DNA from: an uncultured Pelagibacteraceae bacterium
GTDB taxonomy: Bacteria; Pseudomonadota; Alphaproteobacteria; Pelagibacterales; Pelagibacteraceae
DNA length: 64,000 nucleotides
Direction: 5' to 3'
NCBI GenBank assembly: GCA_902543375.1
Contig: CACBYE010000002.1
Coordinates: 62,001 to 126,000 of the forward strand
In this document: piece by piece, positions 58,162-63,451 of the stretch
Numbering within the stretch: the first letter of the stretch is position 1
Layout: every line of letters starts with the position of its first letter
Made by a program: the position numbers and the translations under genes
The notes under the pieces: generated by a model
Databases searched by the model: none
Told to the model about the DNA's origin: nothing
The model's input: the letters and a program-made list of their open reading frames with translations, nothing else

Positions 58162-59303
58162 AAAAAGTAGCTGTAATTGGTGCTGGTATTTCAGGGCTAT
58201 TCATTGCCAATTTATTTAAAAGAAATAAAAAGTATCAAGTAACTATTTTTGAGAAAAATAGCTTTATCAATTTAAAAGATGGTTACGGCATTCAATTATC
58301 CATCAACAGCATAAAACTTTTAAACAAAATTAATTTTGAGAGATTGGGAAATAGTGAGAAATTTAATCCAAATAAGATCAATTTTTACTCAATTAAAAAT
58401 TCTAATAAGATATGTGAATTAGATATTTCAAATTTTAACACTGAAAATTGTAAATATACTACTCTTAAAAGATCCTCACTTATTAATTTTTTAAAAAAAG
58501 ATTTAGAAAAAGAGATAAAATTTGATCATAGTATTTCAAAGATAGAACAACAAGATCACATCATTAAAATTACTTTTAACAACAACGATATTTACGAATG
58601 TGACTATTTAATAATTTCTGATGGAGTCTTTTCAAAGAGTAAAAATTTATTATCAAAACATCAGGTTGAACCAAAATTTAATCATAAATTAGCTATTAGA
58701 GGAAAAATACCATGCTCATTAGATATAGCTGACAAAAAAAACATTTCATTATTTTTAGGTTCGAATTTTCACTATGTTGTTTATCCAGTATCCCCGAGTG
58801 GTGAATTAAATTTTATAGCTGTAATGAAATATAAACTTTCAGAAGATGAACAAAAAAATTACTCGGTGCTTAATGATGATAATTTTATAAAAAAGATTTT
58901 TGAAGAAGTTCCGTACTTAAATAGGGAATTTTTTAATAATATTCAGGATTTAAAGATATACCCAGTATTCGTAAGTAATGATTATTTTAAAGTCAAAAAT
59001 AAAAATATTCATCTAATAGGTGATGCTTTTTTTACATTTCCTCCATCATTTGCGCAAGGTGCATCACAATCAATAGAAGGTGCATATGAATTATTTGAGA
59101 ACATAGAGAATAATACTGAAAGTAATTTTTTTAAAAATAGAGTTGATAAAACAAAGATGGTTAATAATCGTTCAAAATTAAATCAATTTGCTTTTCATTT
59201 ATCTAATCCTTTAACAACATTATTAAGAAATATTCTTTTGAAAAGATTGGTAAAAAACAAAAAGTTTTTAGAAGGCTATCTTGGTAAAATTTACAAAAAC
59301 TAA
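58158..59303 (+). CDS. FAD-dependent monooxygenase (UbiH/salicylate hydroxylase superfamily)
   Basis: 381 residues. VAVIGAGISGLFIANLFKRN is the N-terminal Rossmann motif. CDYLIISDGVFSKSKNLL matches the DG motif of flavin hydroxylases, and HLIGDAFFTFPPSFAQGASQS is the GD motif with the FAD ribityl contact. It is an aromatic or polyprenyl ring hydroxylase by family. A ubiquinone-pathway role is possible but not shown. It overlaps mutY by 4 bases (ATGA), and its stop overlaps ccrM by 4 bases. Confidence 0.85.
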   Translation: MKKVAVIGAGISGLFIANLFKRNKKYQVTIFEKNSFINLKDGYGIQLSINSIKLLNKINFERLGNSEKFNPNKINFYSIKNSNKICELDISNFNTENCKYTTLKRSSLINFLKKDLEKEIKFDHSISKIEQQDHIIKITFNNNDIYECDYLIISDGVFSKSKNLLSKHQVEPKFNHKLAIRGKIPCSLDIADKKNISLFLGSNFHYVVYPVSPSGELNFIAVMKYKLSEDEQKNYSVLNDDNFIKKIFEEVPYLNREFFNNIQDLKIYPVFVSNDYFKVKNKNIHLIGDAFFTFPPSFAQGASQSIEGAYELFENIENNTESNFFKNRVDKTKMVNNRSKLNQFAFHLSNPLTTLLRNILLKRLVKNKKFLEGYLGKIYKN

Positions 59304-60370
59304 CTATTAGAAATCAATCTTTGTCTTAAATTATCAATAGGAACTGCGATTCCATTCAAGTTATAGTGCCAATAGGTCCATCCATTACAGCTCTCAGCAC
59401 CTAAGATTGTGGCTGCTACTTTATGAATTGAACCTTCAGTTTGAGCGTGTTTGATACTGCCATCAGCTCTAATCTTTGCGCTAATTTCCTTTTTATTATC
59501 GAAAATAATAGTTCCTGGTTTTATTATTCCTAATTCAACCAAAGAACCAAAAGGTATTCTTGGTTTAGATCTACCGTTCTTAAGAGTATCTAAATGATCA
59601 TTTTCTATAGGTTTTGCTTTCCTTAGTCTTTTTTCAGCAGCTTTAAAATAGGTTTTTTCTTTTTCAATTCCGTAATAATTTCTACTCAATTTTTTTGCAA
59701 CTGTTGCTGTTGTTCCTGATCCTAAAAAAGGATCTAAAACTAAATCATCTTTATTTGAAGTTGCTAATAAAATTCTGTGAAGTAGAGCCTCAGGTTTTTG
59801 AGTAGAATGCACTTTTTTACCATTTTTTTTTAGTCTTTCAGAACCATTACAAATTGGAAATTCCCAGTTAGATCGCATTTGAAGATCGTCATTTAAACAC
59901 TTTAAGGATTGATAATTAAAAGTGTACTTTGATTTTTCAGACTTAGATGCCCAAATTAAAGTTTCATGGGCATTCGTAAAACGTGTTCCTCTAAAATTTG
60001 GCATGGGATTTTTTTTATTCCAAATGACGTCATTTAAAATCCAAAAACCTAAATTTTGAATAGCTGTCCCAACTCTAAAAATATTATGGTAACTACCAAT
60101 TACCCATATAGCTCCATCTTTTTTTAAAATTCTTTTACATTCGCTTAACCATGAATAAGTAAAGTCATCATACTTTTTAAAATTTTCAAATTGATCCCAT
60201 TTGTCATTTACCGCATTTACTTTCGATCTATCAGGTCTTGTTAATTCACTTTTTAATTGCAGGTTGTAAGGAGGGTCAGCAAAAATTAAATCAAAAGTTT
60301 CATTGGGAATTTTTTTAAGTTCCTGAAGGCTATCTCCATTAATTATTTTATTTTTTAAGTTTAAGTTCAT
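59300..60370 (-). CDS. ccrM: cell-cycle DNA adenine methyltransferase CcrM (GANTC)
   Basis: 356 residues from the ATG chosen; a TTG at 60412 would lie inside the promoter. FADPPYNLQLKSELTRPDRSK carries the catalytic DPPY (residues 32-35). DPFLGSGTTATVAKKL is the SAM-binding motif, in the beta-class order. The C-terminal RAMA-type domain includes PFGSLVELGIIKPG and ESCNGWTYWHYNLNG, characteristic of CcrM and HinfI-like enzymes methylating GANTC. In Caulobacter it acts in cell-cycle control with GcrA and CtrA. Two GANTC sites lie in its own promoter. Confidence 0.95.
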   Translation of the reverse strand: MNLNLKNKIINGDSLQELKKIPNETFDLIFADPPYNLQLKSELTRPDRSKVNAVNDKWDQFENFKKYDDFTYSWLSECKRILKKDGAIWVIGSYHNIFRVGTAIQNLGFWILNDVIWNKKNPMPNFRGTRFTNAHETLIWASKSEKSKYTFNYQSLKCLNDDLQMRSNWEFPICNGSERLKKNGKKVHSTQKPEALLHRILLATSNKDDLVLDPFLGSGTTATVAKKLSRNYYGIEKEKTYFKAAEKRLRKAKPIENDHLDTLKNGRSKPRIPFGSLVELGIIKPGTIIFDNKKEISAKIRADGSIKHAQTEGSIHKVAATILGAESCNGWTYWHYNLNGIAVPIDNLRQRLISNS

Positions 60371-60383
60371 TTTATAAAAAGAA

Positions 60384-60412
60384 ATTAGACTCCAAAAAGA
60401 TTCTTGGGTCAA
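60384..60412 (-). promoter_or_regulatory. sigma-70-type ccrM promoter containing two GANTC sites
   Basis: On the minus strand TTGACC (60412-60407), exactly 17 bases, then TCTAAT (60389-60384). Both boxes match five or four of six consensus positions. GAATC (60403-60399) lies in the spacer and GAGTC (60392-60388) overlaps the first two bases of the -10 box. Transcription would start about seven bases before the ATG at 60370. Confidence 0.7.
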
Positions 60413-60489
60413 CCTATGATTGAATTATTTAGATTTGTTTTGTATGACTTATCATAACGGCAACTACATATTGTGTTTTTACGTGAAAA

Positions 60490-61050
60490 CTATTTAGATT
60501 TCTTTATGGGTGAAAAGGTTTTTCTGTGATGCTTTGTAACTCCTAAAACTTTTATGGCTTTTAAATGTTGACTAGTGCCATATCCAAAATTTTTTTGCCA
60601 ATTATAGCCTCTAAACTTTTTACCTAGATCTGAAATTATTTTATCACGTGTAACTTTCGCAATAATCGATGCTGCTGAAATCGAAGGAATTTTTTGGTCA
60701 CCTTTAATTATTGATTTAAGTCTGTAATTTTTAATATTGGGCAATTTATTTCCGTCAATTAAAACGTGTGAAGGCCTTTTCCTCAGTTTTTTTATTGCTC
60801 TTTTCATTGCTAATAAACTGGCATTTAAAATATTTAGCTCTTCAATTTCCTTCAATGATGCCTTTCCAATTGCCCAAATTGAATTTTTTTTAATATGCTC
60901 AAATAAGAGTTTGCGTTTAGAGCTCGATAAACTTTTTGAGTCTTTTAGTAATTTTGTATTTATGGATCTTTTTAAAATAACTGCAGCTGCATAGACTGGT
61001 CCCACCAAACTTCCTCGACCAACTTCATCTACTCCAGCAATTATTTTCAT
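60490..61050 (-). CDS. rnhB: ribonuclease HII
   Basis: 186 residues from the ATG that shares one base with the upstream stop (TAATG). IIAGVDEVGRGSLVGPVYAA holds the DEVG metal site. HVLIDGNKLP, SISAASIIAKVTRDKII and the GYNWQKNFGYGTSQHLKAI loop are RNase HII signatures. It nicks at ribonucleotides in DNA and at hybrids. It overlaps the uracil-DNA glycosylase gene, giving a two-gene DNA-repair unit, with ccrM 119 bases further on. Confidence 0.97.
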   Translation of the reverse strand: MKIIAGVDEVGRGSLVGPVYAAAVILKRSINTKLLKDSKSLSSSKRKLLFEHIKKNSIWAIGKASLKEIEELNILNASLLAMKRAIKKLRKRPSHVLIDGNKLPNIKNYRLKSIIKGDQKIPSISAASIIAKVTRDKIISDLGKKFRGYNWQKNFGYGTSQHLKAIKVLGVTKHHRKTFSPIKKSK

Positions 61051-61769
61051 TAAATTATAATATTTAAATCCTCTACTTTTTTTCTTATTTTCTTTAGGTC
61101 CTCCCATGAATATTTTTTTTTGTCTGGATACCTCATTAAATAAGATGGATTAAAAGTGATAATCACAGGAATTGTTTTATTTCCAATTATAATCTCTTTC
61201 CAATTTCCTCTTTCATTTGAAATTTGATTGTTAAGACCCGTTACAGCCTCCATTGCAGTGGTGCCCATTAATATCAAAATTTTAGGATCGACAATTGAAA
61301 TATGTTCTTTCAAAAAAATTGAATATCTCTTTATTTCTTGCGGTGTGGGCTTTCTATCGTTAGGTGGTCGAAAATTTATTGAGTAAGTAGAGTAAACCGT
61401 CTCTCTTTTGATGTTAATCGCTAAAAGCATCTTGTTTAAAAGTACCCCAACATCTCCACAAAATGTTTTAGCTTTCAAGTCCTCTTGCTCATTAGGAGCT
61501 TCTCCAATTAACATTAGAGGACTATTTATGTCACCATCTCCCATAATTAAATTTTTGGAATTATCTCTTAAATTACAATCTTTAATTGAATTGATTTTTC
61601 TCTTTAGTATCAATATTCTCTCTTCTTTTGTTGATTTATTTTGAATGCTATTTTCCTCAACAACTTTAAGTCTGTTTATTGGCTTATTACTAAATTCAAA
61701 TTTAGACTCAACTTTATCTAAAAATCTTTGATCATATTTGCCATTTTGATTTAACATCTTTTTAGTCAT
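61050..61769 (-). CDS. divergent family 4-type uracil-DNA glycosylase
   Basis: 239 residues. LMLIGEAPNEQEDLKA (89-97 core) is motif 1, and INFRPPNDRKPTPQEI is the NxRPPxNR-type loop. ITFNPSYLMRYP replaces the usual HP[AS] of motif 2 by Asn207. Of the four cluster cysteines of thermophilic family 4 enzymes only Cys65 aligns clearly; the others appear as Arg, Phe and Tyr or Ser. A 60-residue lysine-rich N-terminal extension precedes the core. It should remove uracil from DNA unless the changed motif weakens it. Confidence 0.85.
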   Translation of the reverse strand: MTKKMLNQNGKYDQRFLDKVESKFEFSNKPINRLKVVEENSIQNKSTKEERILILKRKINSIKDCNLRDNSKNLIMGDGDINSPLMLIGEAPNEQEDLKAKTFCGDVGVLLNKMLLAINIKRETVYSTYSINFRPPNDRKPTPQEIKRYSIFLKEHISIVDPKILILMGTTAMEAVTGLNNQISNERGNWKEIIIGNKTIPVIITFNPSYLMRYPDKKKYSWEDLKKIRKKVEDLNIII

Positions 61770-61780
61770 AAAGTGCAGTT

Positions 61781-63451
61781 ATGTATTTCAAAAATATAAA
61801 ATTTTTCTTGATTATTGTATTACTTTACCAAAATCCTTTGCATTCTAAAAGCGCTAGTTTTGATGATTTTGACTCTAAAAATTTATCAAAATATTTTTCT
61901 GGAATTGTAGCATTTGAAAACAAAAACAATTCAAAGGCATTAAATTTTTTTAATACATCTAAAATTTTATTAAATAAACACGAACCCTATTTAAAGAGAT
62001 ATGTTTACTCCTTAGTTTTAGAAAATAAGATAAATCAAGCAATAAATGTAATTAAACAAAATAAAAATAAATCTGAATTTTTTGAAAAATACATATTATT
62101 AATAATAGACAGCTTAAGAAGAAATGATTTTTCAAAAGCATTAGATTATATATCTAAGACCAAAAAATATACTAAGCTTAACCAATTTAATTCAGCAATT
62201 TTAGATAATTTGAAAGACTATATTATCGTATTCAATGAAAAAAGACTGCCTAGTAATATAAAAGATTATGGAAATCTATCAATAATTTCAACAACCTTTC
62301 AAAGGTGCTATTTAGAAGACCCTAAAACAAAAACTTTTTTCTATAAGTTGGTTAATAATGATGATGCAGACTTAACTAGGTACACTTTTTTTTACTTAGC
62401 ATATCTAATTGAAAATAATCAAACGGAGGAAGCCAAAAAAATAACTGGAGGTATTAAATTTATCAACGCATCTTTACTTTTGTCTCAAGCTAAAAGTTGG
62501 ATTGAAAATGACAATGAAAAAAAAATCAATGATGTTTTTTCATGTAAAGATCATAATGACTTAATAAGTGAATTTTTGTTTTTAATATCCAATTTGTACT
62601 CTACTCAAGACAATTTTATCAAATCTCATTTTTATTTGTCTTTGTCCAATTATTTAAATCCAAAATTTCATTATAATTTATCATTGATAGTTGAAAATCA
62701 ATATTCAAATGGAGAATTTGATCGAGTTAAAAAAATATTACGAGAATTTGAAAAAGAAGATGATTTTTATTATTGGTATAGATTAAAAAAAGAGGCACAA
62801 ATAATTTCAAAAGAAATTGGCCAAAAAGAATCGTTAAAATTCATTAAGTCTAAATTTGAAAAAATTGAAAAACCAAATAAAAAAATTTTATTTGATATCG
62901 CAAATTTCTACAGAAACGCTAAAGAGTATCAACAAGCGATAAAATATTACACAATATTATTAGGAATAGTTGGTAACGATTTAGGAATTAAATCAGATTT
63001 ATTCTATAGAAGAGGTGCGAGTAATGAACGAATGGGGAATTATGAAGAAGCAGATAGAGACATGCTTTTATCTCTAGAAATTGATCCTGATGATGCATAC
63101 GTTCTTAATTACTTGGCTTATTCTTGGTTAGAGAGAGATCATAAAATTAAAGAGGCAATGGAAATGTTAGAGAAAGCATATTCTTTAAAAGAAAATGATC
63201 CTTATATAATAGACTCAATTGGTTGGGCTTATTATCTAACTGATGACCATGTAAAAGCAGAAACATATTTAAAAAGAGCTGTCGAGATAATGCCAGATGA
63301 TGCTATAGTAAATGATCACTATGGAGATATTCTTTGGAAGTTAGGAAGAAAAATTCAAGCAAGATATTTTTGGAATAGTGTATCTAAAATGGAAGATGTC
63401 GATGAGGAATTATTACAAAAAATAAATTCCAAAATAATCAAAGGACTCTGA
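61781..63451 (+). CDS. secreted or periplasmic TPR-repeat protein
   Basis: 556 residues. A signal peptide (FLIIVLLYQNPLHSKS) precedes a long alpha-helical solenoid. Tetratricopeptide repeats are clearest at about residues 370-520, e.g. GNYEEADRDMLLSLEIDPDD, KEAMEMLEKAYSLKENDPY and AETYLKRAVEIMPDD. It is probably a periplasmic scaffold for envelope assembly, a frequent role of such proteins, but no partner is visible. The gene lies 11 bases from the divergent glycosylase gene and is followed by ispE with a one-base gap. Confidence 0.85.
   Translation: MYFKNIKFFLIIVLLYQNPLHSKSASFDDFDSKNLSKYFSGIVAFENKNNSKALNFFNTSKILLNKHEPYLKRYVYSLVLENKINQAINVIKQNKNKSEFFEKYILLIIDSLRRNDFSKALDYISKTKKYTKLNQFNSAILDNLKDYIIVFNEKRLPSNIKDYGNLSIISTTFQRCYLEDPKTKTFFYKLVNNDDADLTRYTFFYLAYLIENNQTEEAKKITGGIKFINASLLLSQAKSWIENDNEKKINDVFSCKDHNDLISEFLFLISNLYSTQDNFIKSHFYLSLSNYLNPKFHYNLSLIVENQYSNGEFDRVKKILREFEKEDDFYYWYRLKKEAQIISKEIGQKESLKFIKSKFEKIEKPNKKILFDIANFYRNAKEYQQAIKYYTILLGIVGNDLGIKSDLFYRRGASNERMGNYEEADRDMLLSLEIDPDDAYVLNYLAYSWLERDHKIKEAMEMLEKAYSLKENDPYIIDSIGWAYYLTDDHVKAETYLKRAVEIMPDDAIVNDHYGDILWKLGRKIQARYFWNSVSKMEDVDEELLQKINSKIIKGL

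Follow-up and report, generated by a model that had tools for sequence, protein, structure and literature searches.

Among the closest described relatives of the element treated here are the sigma70 promoters of Caulobacter that answer to the methyltransferase CcrM and the regulator GcrA, such as ctrA P1, podJ P2 and mipZ. The element is the promoter of ccrM itself, in a stretch of 64,000 nucleotides (the window) from an uncultured Pelagibacteraceae bacterium, positions 62,001 to 126,000 of contig CACBYE010000002.1. In Caulobacter, GcrA acts through sigma70 at methylated promoters. It binds sigma2, recognises promoters with N6-methyladenine (m6A), and raises both the affinity of the polymerase and the rate of open-complex formation (PMC7403470). 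It favours fully methylated or hemimethylated DNA over unmethylated DNA, and ctrA P1 requires hemimethylation (PMC8116508). GANTC, the target of CcrM, lies at -29 in ctrA P1 and at -24 in podJ P2, and the promoters with a GANTC between -35 and -10 constitute one temporal class (PMC4287350).

In the window, the core promoter of ccrM carries two GANTC sites, one in the spacer and one overlapping the -10 box. This layout is a real, selected feature. It recurs at ccrM in many relatives, and CcrM therefore probably helps to control its own production. By analogy with Caulobacter, the promoter is reasonably likely to be GcrA-dependent and methylation-responsive, closing a loop between CcrM and GcrA.

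Anatomy of the ccrM promoter

All elements lie on the minus strand. The -35 element TTGACC occupies 60407..60412; the combination of TTGAC with a GANTC 19-20 bases on is kept in the same order. The spacer site, GAATC (60399..60403), begins 9 bases past the start of TTGAC (+9, the offset used throughout), at about -26 to -22. The second site, GAGTC (60388..60392), begins at +20, about one helical turn from the first. Its T and C are the first two bases of the -10 element TCTAAT (60384..60389), which follows TTGACC after a 17-base spacer. The ATG of ccrM stands at 60370, and the predicted leader, for an inferred start site, is very short, about 7 bases (60371..60377).

A sequence-only reading of this locus had described the same boxes and sites and a leader of about seven bases. 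The sequence, the coordinates and the position of the ATG bear this out. TAATTT at 60387-60382, which would give a 19-base spacer, is another possible -10 element. A consensus promoter scanner misses the promoter because the second base of the -10 box, which it requires to be A, is C here. A TTG start codon at 60412, which would place the promoter inside the reading frame, was ruled out, since relatives do not preserve the frame in the distance from TTGAC to the ATG.

The gene itself (59300..60370) encodes a putative GANTC adenine methyltransferase of 356 amino acids plus stop, with the Pfam domains N6_N4_Mtase and RAMA. Its best match in the PDB is CcrMI (6pbd), and the GANTC specificity is suggested by this similarity. 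Against the model NF050803 it scores 576.6 bits, under that model's cut-off of 830.

The layout in the order and across the class

Of 121 genomes searched in the same order, 99 had a match; the relatives fall into two families, f1 (that of the window) and f2. The upstream regions compared number 89, made up of 30 loci (the window's own included) and 59 of 60 further stretches; L092 was left out as a different methyltransferase. All genome counts are raw and ignore relatedness among the genomes.

A GANTC begins at +19 or +20 from TTGAC in 88 of the 89 regions, and both sites, the spacer one at +6 to +11, are present in 80. The nine regions without both are L011, L027, L031 and L032 from the same genus and L060, L079, L081, L082 and L085 from f2. 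Ten matched genomes have no region in the set, and six of these carry the double-site pattern at ccrM (G038, G053, G089, G100, G110, G114). Among sequences of the same genus, taken together with two further genomes, both sites are retained in 52 of 56. The alignment across relatives proposed as a check in the sequence-only reading thus finds the GANTC sites kept along with the promoter boxes, and its statement that they sit in the core promoter rather than in the leader only holds.

The layout is nearly specific for ccrM in this order. In the 59 further stretches, at least two GANTC occur within 100 bp upstream of ccrM in 59 of 59 cases and upstream of nine neighbouring genes in 3 of 346. At least one GANTC, a less telling measure, is found in 52 of the 346 neighbour regions, including 22 of rnhB and 16 of ispE. 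Across all 121 genomes the double-site pattern occurs at 97 places in 92 genomes (reversed control, 19); judged by position, 86 of them are at ccrM and 11 elsewhere.

Within the genus, the spacer site begins at either +8 or +9. Its N base at +8 is C in 14, G in 4, T in 2 and A in 1 of 21 distinct sequences; at +9 it is A in all 17. In the +8 subset, 60-74% of sequence pairs disagree at six of the nine remaining spacer columns, and spacer columns 17 and 18 hardly vary. The invariant GA and TC within these two subsets are an effect of how the subsets were selected, which does not apply to the figure of 52 of 56. Many genomes of the genus have a further GANTC about 24 bases before TTGAC; the window's own genome is without it.

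The layout is also found outside the order. A search of 387 genomes of the class gave a match in 324, and 29 loci and 60 further stretches were read (n=89). This sample, mostly one per family among the matches listed, favours CcrM close to the query, and 5 of its 89 regions belong to the window's family. TTGAC with a GANTC at +19 or +20 is present in 44 of the 89, and both sites in 37. A second, named set holds the best 80 loci; the alignment of the query is headed by CcrM from outside the order, so some orders are favoured. Here 54 of 80 loci have the layout and 51 have both sites. By order, as assigned from record titles, it is found in 41 of 44 Rhodobacterales, 0 of 10 Rhizobiales or Hyphomicrobiales, 0 of 5 Caulobacterales (Hyphomonadaceae included) and 13 of 21 others.

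Chance seldom produces such a pattern. The layout occurs upstream of none of 364 other genes of the named loci, and dinucleotide shuffles gave one site in register in 33 of 16,900 and both sites in none. Over 178 TTGACs of the class and named sets, GANTC offsets peak at +8 (69) and +19 (92). Among the 92 loci with the +19 site, the spacer site lies at +8 in 61; over the two sets its offset ranges from +6 to +10. The nearest further GANTC upstream lies at -15 or -16 from TTGAC in 58 of these 92 loci. A class-wide count of the double site followed by A (146 of 387 genomes) includes genes other than ccrM and repeats, and was not used as a count of ccrM.

One claim of the sequence-only reading does not survive this distribution, namely that the layout belongs to a streamlined cell. 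It is common to many Alphaproteobacteria with larger genomes, and streamlining as its cause was ruled out on that ground. Moreover, three single-contig genomes from other genera of the window's own family are without the pair (L124 and L125, from G436 and G203, and L123, from G498). The spacer site alone is present in G498, and all three genomes have GcrA.

The bases around the second site identify the element as a promoter. In 91 distinct sequences of the class and named sets with the +19 site, the spacer is 17 bases, -11 is A in 100% and -7 is T in 98%. The invariant -11A and the nearly invariant -7T mark the element as a genuine core promoter. In these sequences the -10 box opens with the last C of the second GANTC. 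T is the base preferred at this position, and so the second site seems to be kept at a cost in promoter strength.

Members of the window's genus have the second site shifted one base further, into the -10 box. All 50 distinct sequences have C at -11 and T at -7. The -10 element of the genus would be either a poorly matched TCTAAT with a 17-base spacer or TAATTT with a 19-base spacer.

The start codon is close by. The first in-frame start lies 41-42 bases past the start of TTGAC in 51 of 53 regions of the genus. In f2 it lies at 35-36 bases, which is the predicted transcription start, in 34 of 35. In the class and named sets 21 of 98 have it at 35-37, and the others spread from 29 to 110. Transcripts in this order therefore probably have no leader or almost none, which would leave little room for control at that level.

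At the level of the genome, GANTC is depleted in the window, with 103 found against 182.5 +/- 13.6 expected from shuffles, or about one per 620 bases. Close GANTC pairs, taken by themselves, are not enriched over the 1,055,085 bases analysed of this genome; at a spacing of 11 there are 4, against 2.3 expected per spacing. TTGAC-N14/15-GANTC occurs at four places in this genome (reversed control, 8), with a spacer site at ccrM only, so that TTGAC with both sites is found at a single place. No wider regulon with an identical layout was found in this genome. When one mismatch in the -35 box is allowed, no GANTC peak appears at +19 or +20 (54 and 63, where offsets 12-29 span 35-77). Intergenic enrichment of GANTC is weak, 1.53 against 1.46 per kb, with rates based on crude calls of open reading frames that have over-extended starts. 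The sequence-only reading had called the pair notable and not extreme. This is right for a close pair alone, which is not rare; the position and conservation of the pair at ccrM are far beyond chance.

The gene upstream of ccrM on the same strand is rnhB (RNase HII, 60490..61107), named from Pfam, whose true start may be later; the gap between the two is 119 bases (60371-60489). With regard to a cognate endonuclease gene next to ccrM, as in restriction-modification systems, the products of rnhB and of a uracil-DNA glycosylase relative were given a profile scan among the neighbours, and the remainder were named by eye. In G012, a complete genome of the same genus with a chromosome of 1.34 Mb, ccrM and dnaA are about 280 kb apart.

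Double-GANTC promoters were also seen at other genes outside the order. In 12 of 20 stretches a second gene has a similar promoter, with the second site a few bases further (L338-L347, L351 and L352; genomes G442, G301, G377, G328, G208, G260, G341, G432, G198, G398, G185 and G283). It encodes a short protein, with the Pfam domain DivIC (FtsB-like septum protein) in all 4 of the 12 that were checked and the others judged by eye. Its start codon lies 35-37 bases past the start of TTGAC in 8 of 12. It may represent a further member of a class of cell-division promoters.

Near-identical double-GANTC promoters are repeated within G412 (55 matches; L334, L335), G430 (L336), G491 and G386 (L337), often at contig ends. 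This suggests insertion sequences with CcrM sites in their promoters. In G165 (L348) the gene behind such a promoter looks by eye like a transposase. Finally, a record titled Mycobacterium sp. KBS0706 (L316) has a ccrM of alphaproteobacterial type with the full layout, and is therefore probably misnamed.

Readers of the methyl mark

The mechanism proposed here starts from a sigma70 core promoter that holds two target sites of the gene's own product, one in its spacer and one on the upstream edge of its -10 box. CcrM would methylate both. The methyl-adenines would be read by GcrA, which would be carried along by RNA polymerase through the sigma2 region and aid the polymerase in opening the weak -10 element. 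Transcription of ccrM would be tied to the methylation state of its own promoter, and replication, by leaving the promoter hemimethylated, would couple expression to the passage of the fork. We infer for this that both sites are methylated in vivo, that GcrA binds, and that methylated DNA (fully or hemimethylated) activates over unmethylated DNA. The feedback could take the form of a positive loop that sustains itself, or of a pulse once the fork has passed.

GcrA (PF07750) is encoded in this genome at G000:C3:121150-121581, and in 100 of the 121 genomes of the order, this one included. Solved structures of Caulobacter GcrA (PDB 7ye1, 5yiu, 5yix) align with it both in the N-terminal part, which binds DNA, and in the C-terminal part, which interacts with sigma. 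In the cultured Ca. P. Giovannoni NP1, 3477 of 3482 GANTC are reported to be fully methylated (PMC9516812), and the promoter sites of NP1 are therefore very probably methylated.

In Caulobacter, ccrM is driven by CtrA. Two papers give Pelagibacter as being without ctrA (PMC2877005, PMC7987155). Nothing in the window's genome, from an assembly about 92% complete, exceeds the NF045991 cut-off for CtrA. Four regulators of OmpR type are encoded; with the 25 best families considered for each, one is over the cut-off for PhoB and none over that for CtrA. By eye, no CtrA box TTAA-N7-TTAA is found in the gap upstream of ccrM. In the named set such boxes separate the groups weakly: of the 26 loci that lack the layout, 1 has a strict box and 6 have a loose one, and of the 54 that have it none has either.

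Several observations weigh against the GcrA-mediated loop. The presence of GcrA does not track the layout: in a sample of 80 genomes it is found in 31 of 35 with the layout and 42 of 45 without it (73 in total), and it is unsupported as a predictor. Four genomes with the layout have no GcrA match and a fifth has one below the cut-off only; a search of 8 genomes with a 49-residue GcrA domain, run with no positive control, was empty. Nor is the layout confined to genomes without CtrA, which is over the cut-off in 24 of 34 genomes with the layout and 24 of 45 without it. Loss of CtrA as the cause was ruled out, CtrA being at least as common with the layout. As many as 45 of the 89 class regions have no such layout, and in G203 and G436 the sites are absent though ccrM and GcrA are present. 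The second site is GAGTC in all 50 distinct sequences of the genus, so that its N base never varies. Neither AGAATCT nor GGAGTCT matches, on either strand, the extended Caulobacter motif YGAKTCK, and few high-probability GcrA targets are reported in Ca. P. ubique (PMC7987155).

The last mismatch has a counterweight. Brevundimonas has little preference for YGAKTCK, slightly favouring C ahead of the site (PMC7987155), and the motif may not define GcrA promoters outside Caulobacter. Since the presence of neither GcrA nor CtrA separates the groups, it is geometry and precedent that carry the link to GcrA.

An alternative explanation dispenses with a reader protein. Here the methyl-adenine at the -10 edge would alter the contact of sigma or polymerase directly; in the simplest case full methylation would lower transcription, a negative feedback in which ccrM is expressed chiefly right after replication. 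Direct feedback of this kind was proposed in the sequence-only reading. It draws on the GANTC found on or directly beside the -10 box in 88 of the order's 89 regions, on the four layout genomes that have no GcrA match, and on restriction-modification methyltransferases that act on their own genes (CfrBI and LlaDII, in titles cited in PMC3874152). The spacer site and the further upstream sites lie outside the -10 contact, yet keep fixed offsets, a pattern that speaks for a protein able to read several marks. GcrA is, moreover, nearly universal in the sample of 80 genomes. Direct feedback is possible and in our judgement unlikely; control through GcrA is likelier because GcrA is encoded here and, in Caulobacter, works at methylated promoters by way of sigma70. 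The earlier clade-specific, direct-polymerase reading gives way to a class-wide, probably GcrA-mediated one.

A protein other than GcrA may also read or occlude the sites, for example a repressor of unmethylated GANTC; the logic of the feedback would be unchanged. In other Alphaproteobacteria some promoters have their GANTC occluded by MucR (PMC5172544). Another factor may bind at TTCAATC, upstream of the -35 box (60418..60424, minus strand), which is conserved in the genus at 98-100% in each of its 7 columns (50 distinct sequences). In f2 and in the class set the consensus at this place differs from TTCAATC, whereas the GANTC geometry is common to them, and this explanation is quite improbable.

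It is very unlikely that the sites are kept for a promoter sequence preference that contains GANTC by coincidence, with methylation of no effect, for although the second site overlaps promoter bases and has a fixed N in the genus, so that its conservation could be partly the promoter's, the spacer site is not in a sigma70 box, shifts in position and takes all four N bases at +8, and the layout is absent upstream of the other genes.

The GcrA-mediated loop can also be extended to a natural epigenetic memory switch, a suggestion that we regard as doubtful. In many Alphaproteobacteria the gene that writes the mark would be driven by an activator that reads it, so that a methylated ccrM promoter would keep CcrM on, and an unmarked one would stay low for generations. 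In the window's clade, without CtrA, this loop would be the main cell-cycle control of DNA methylation, and the shift into the -10 box would make transcription almost wholly dependent on it.

Comparison with known systems

For Alphaproteobacteria without CtrA, such as SAR11, a label that would fit the window's small, AT-rich genome with its CcrM and GcrA, the conserved geometry offers an exact and testable model of the ccrM promoter. It shows that the CtrA-driven ccrM of Caulobacter is not the sole mode. Across much of a bacterial class, a methyltransferase is likely to be under the control of its own mark.

A count of GANTC upstream of cell-cycle genes gave no conclusion (PMC2877005). Another study, using extended GANTC motifs in 13 species, predicted ccrM as a core GcrA target, with this regulation lost in Caulobacterales and Parvularculales (PMC7987155). 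It comes to the same conclusion on the controller of ccrM; the fixed geometry and the one-base shift in the genus are added here. Rhizobiales, without the layout in the named set, are not listed as a loss in that study. No description of the fixed double-site geometry was found in the literature searched, mostly without subscription papers. As far as that search reached, the exact form of the promoter is new and its kind is already known.

A synthetic memory circuit also has CcrM controlling its own operon through methylation of an operator (PMC5458116). There an engineered zinc-finger repressor is blocked by methylation, rather than an activator being recruited by it.

The ccrM gene of Caulobacter, activated by CtrA, likewise has GANTC sites in its control region, and the C. 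vibrioides strain in the named set (L253) has a close pair upstream of ccrM. The window's genome differs in having no CtrA over the cut-off and in placing the sites in the core promoter.

The promoters ctrA P1, podJ P2 and mipZ share with it a GANTC in or near the interval between -35 and -10, in a genome that encodes both CcrM and GcrA. The spacer site described here begins at about -26, beside -29 and -24 in the first two. Unlike those promoters, the present one, for which GcrA binding and a response to methylation are putative, controls ccrM itself and does not match YGAKTCK. Its two sites keep fixed offsets, and one of them reaches inside the -10 box.
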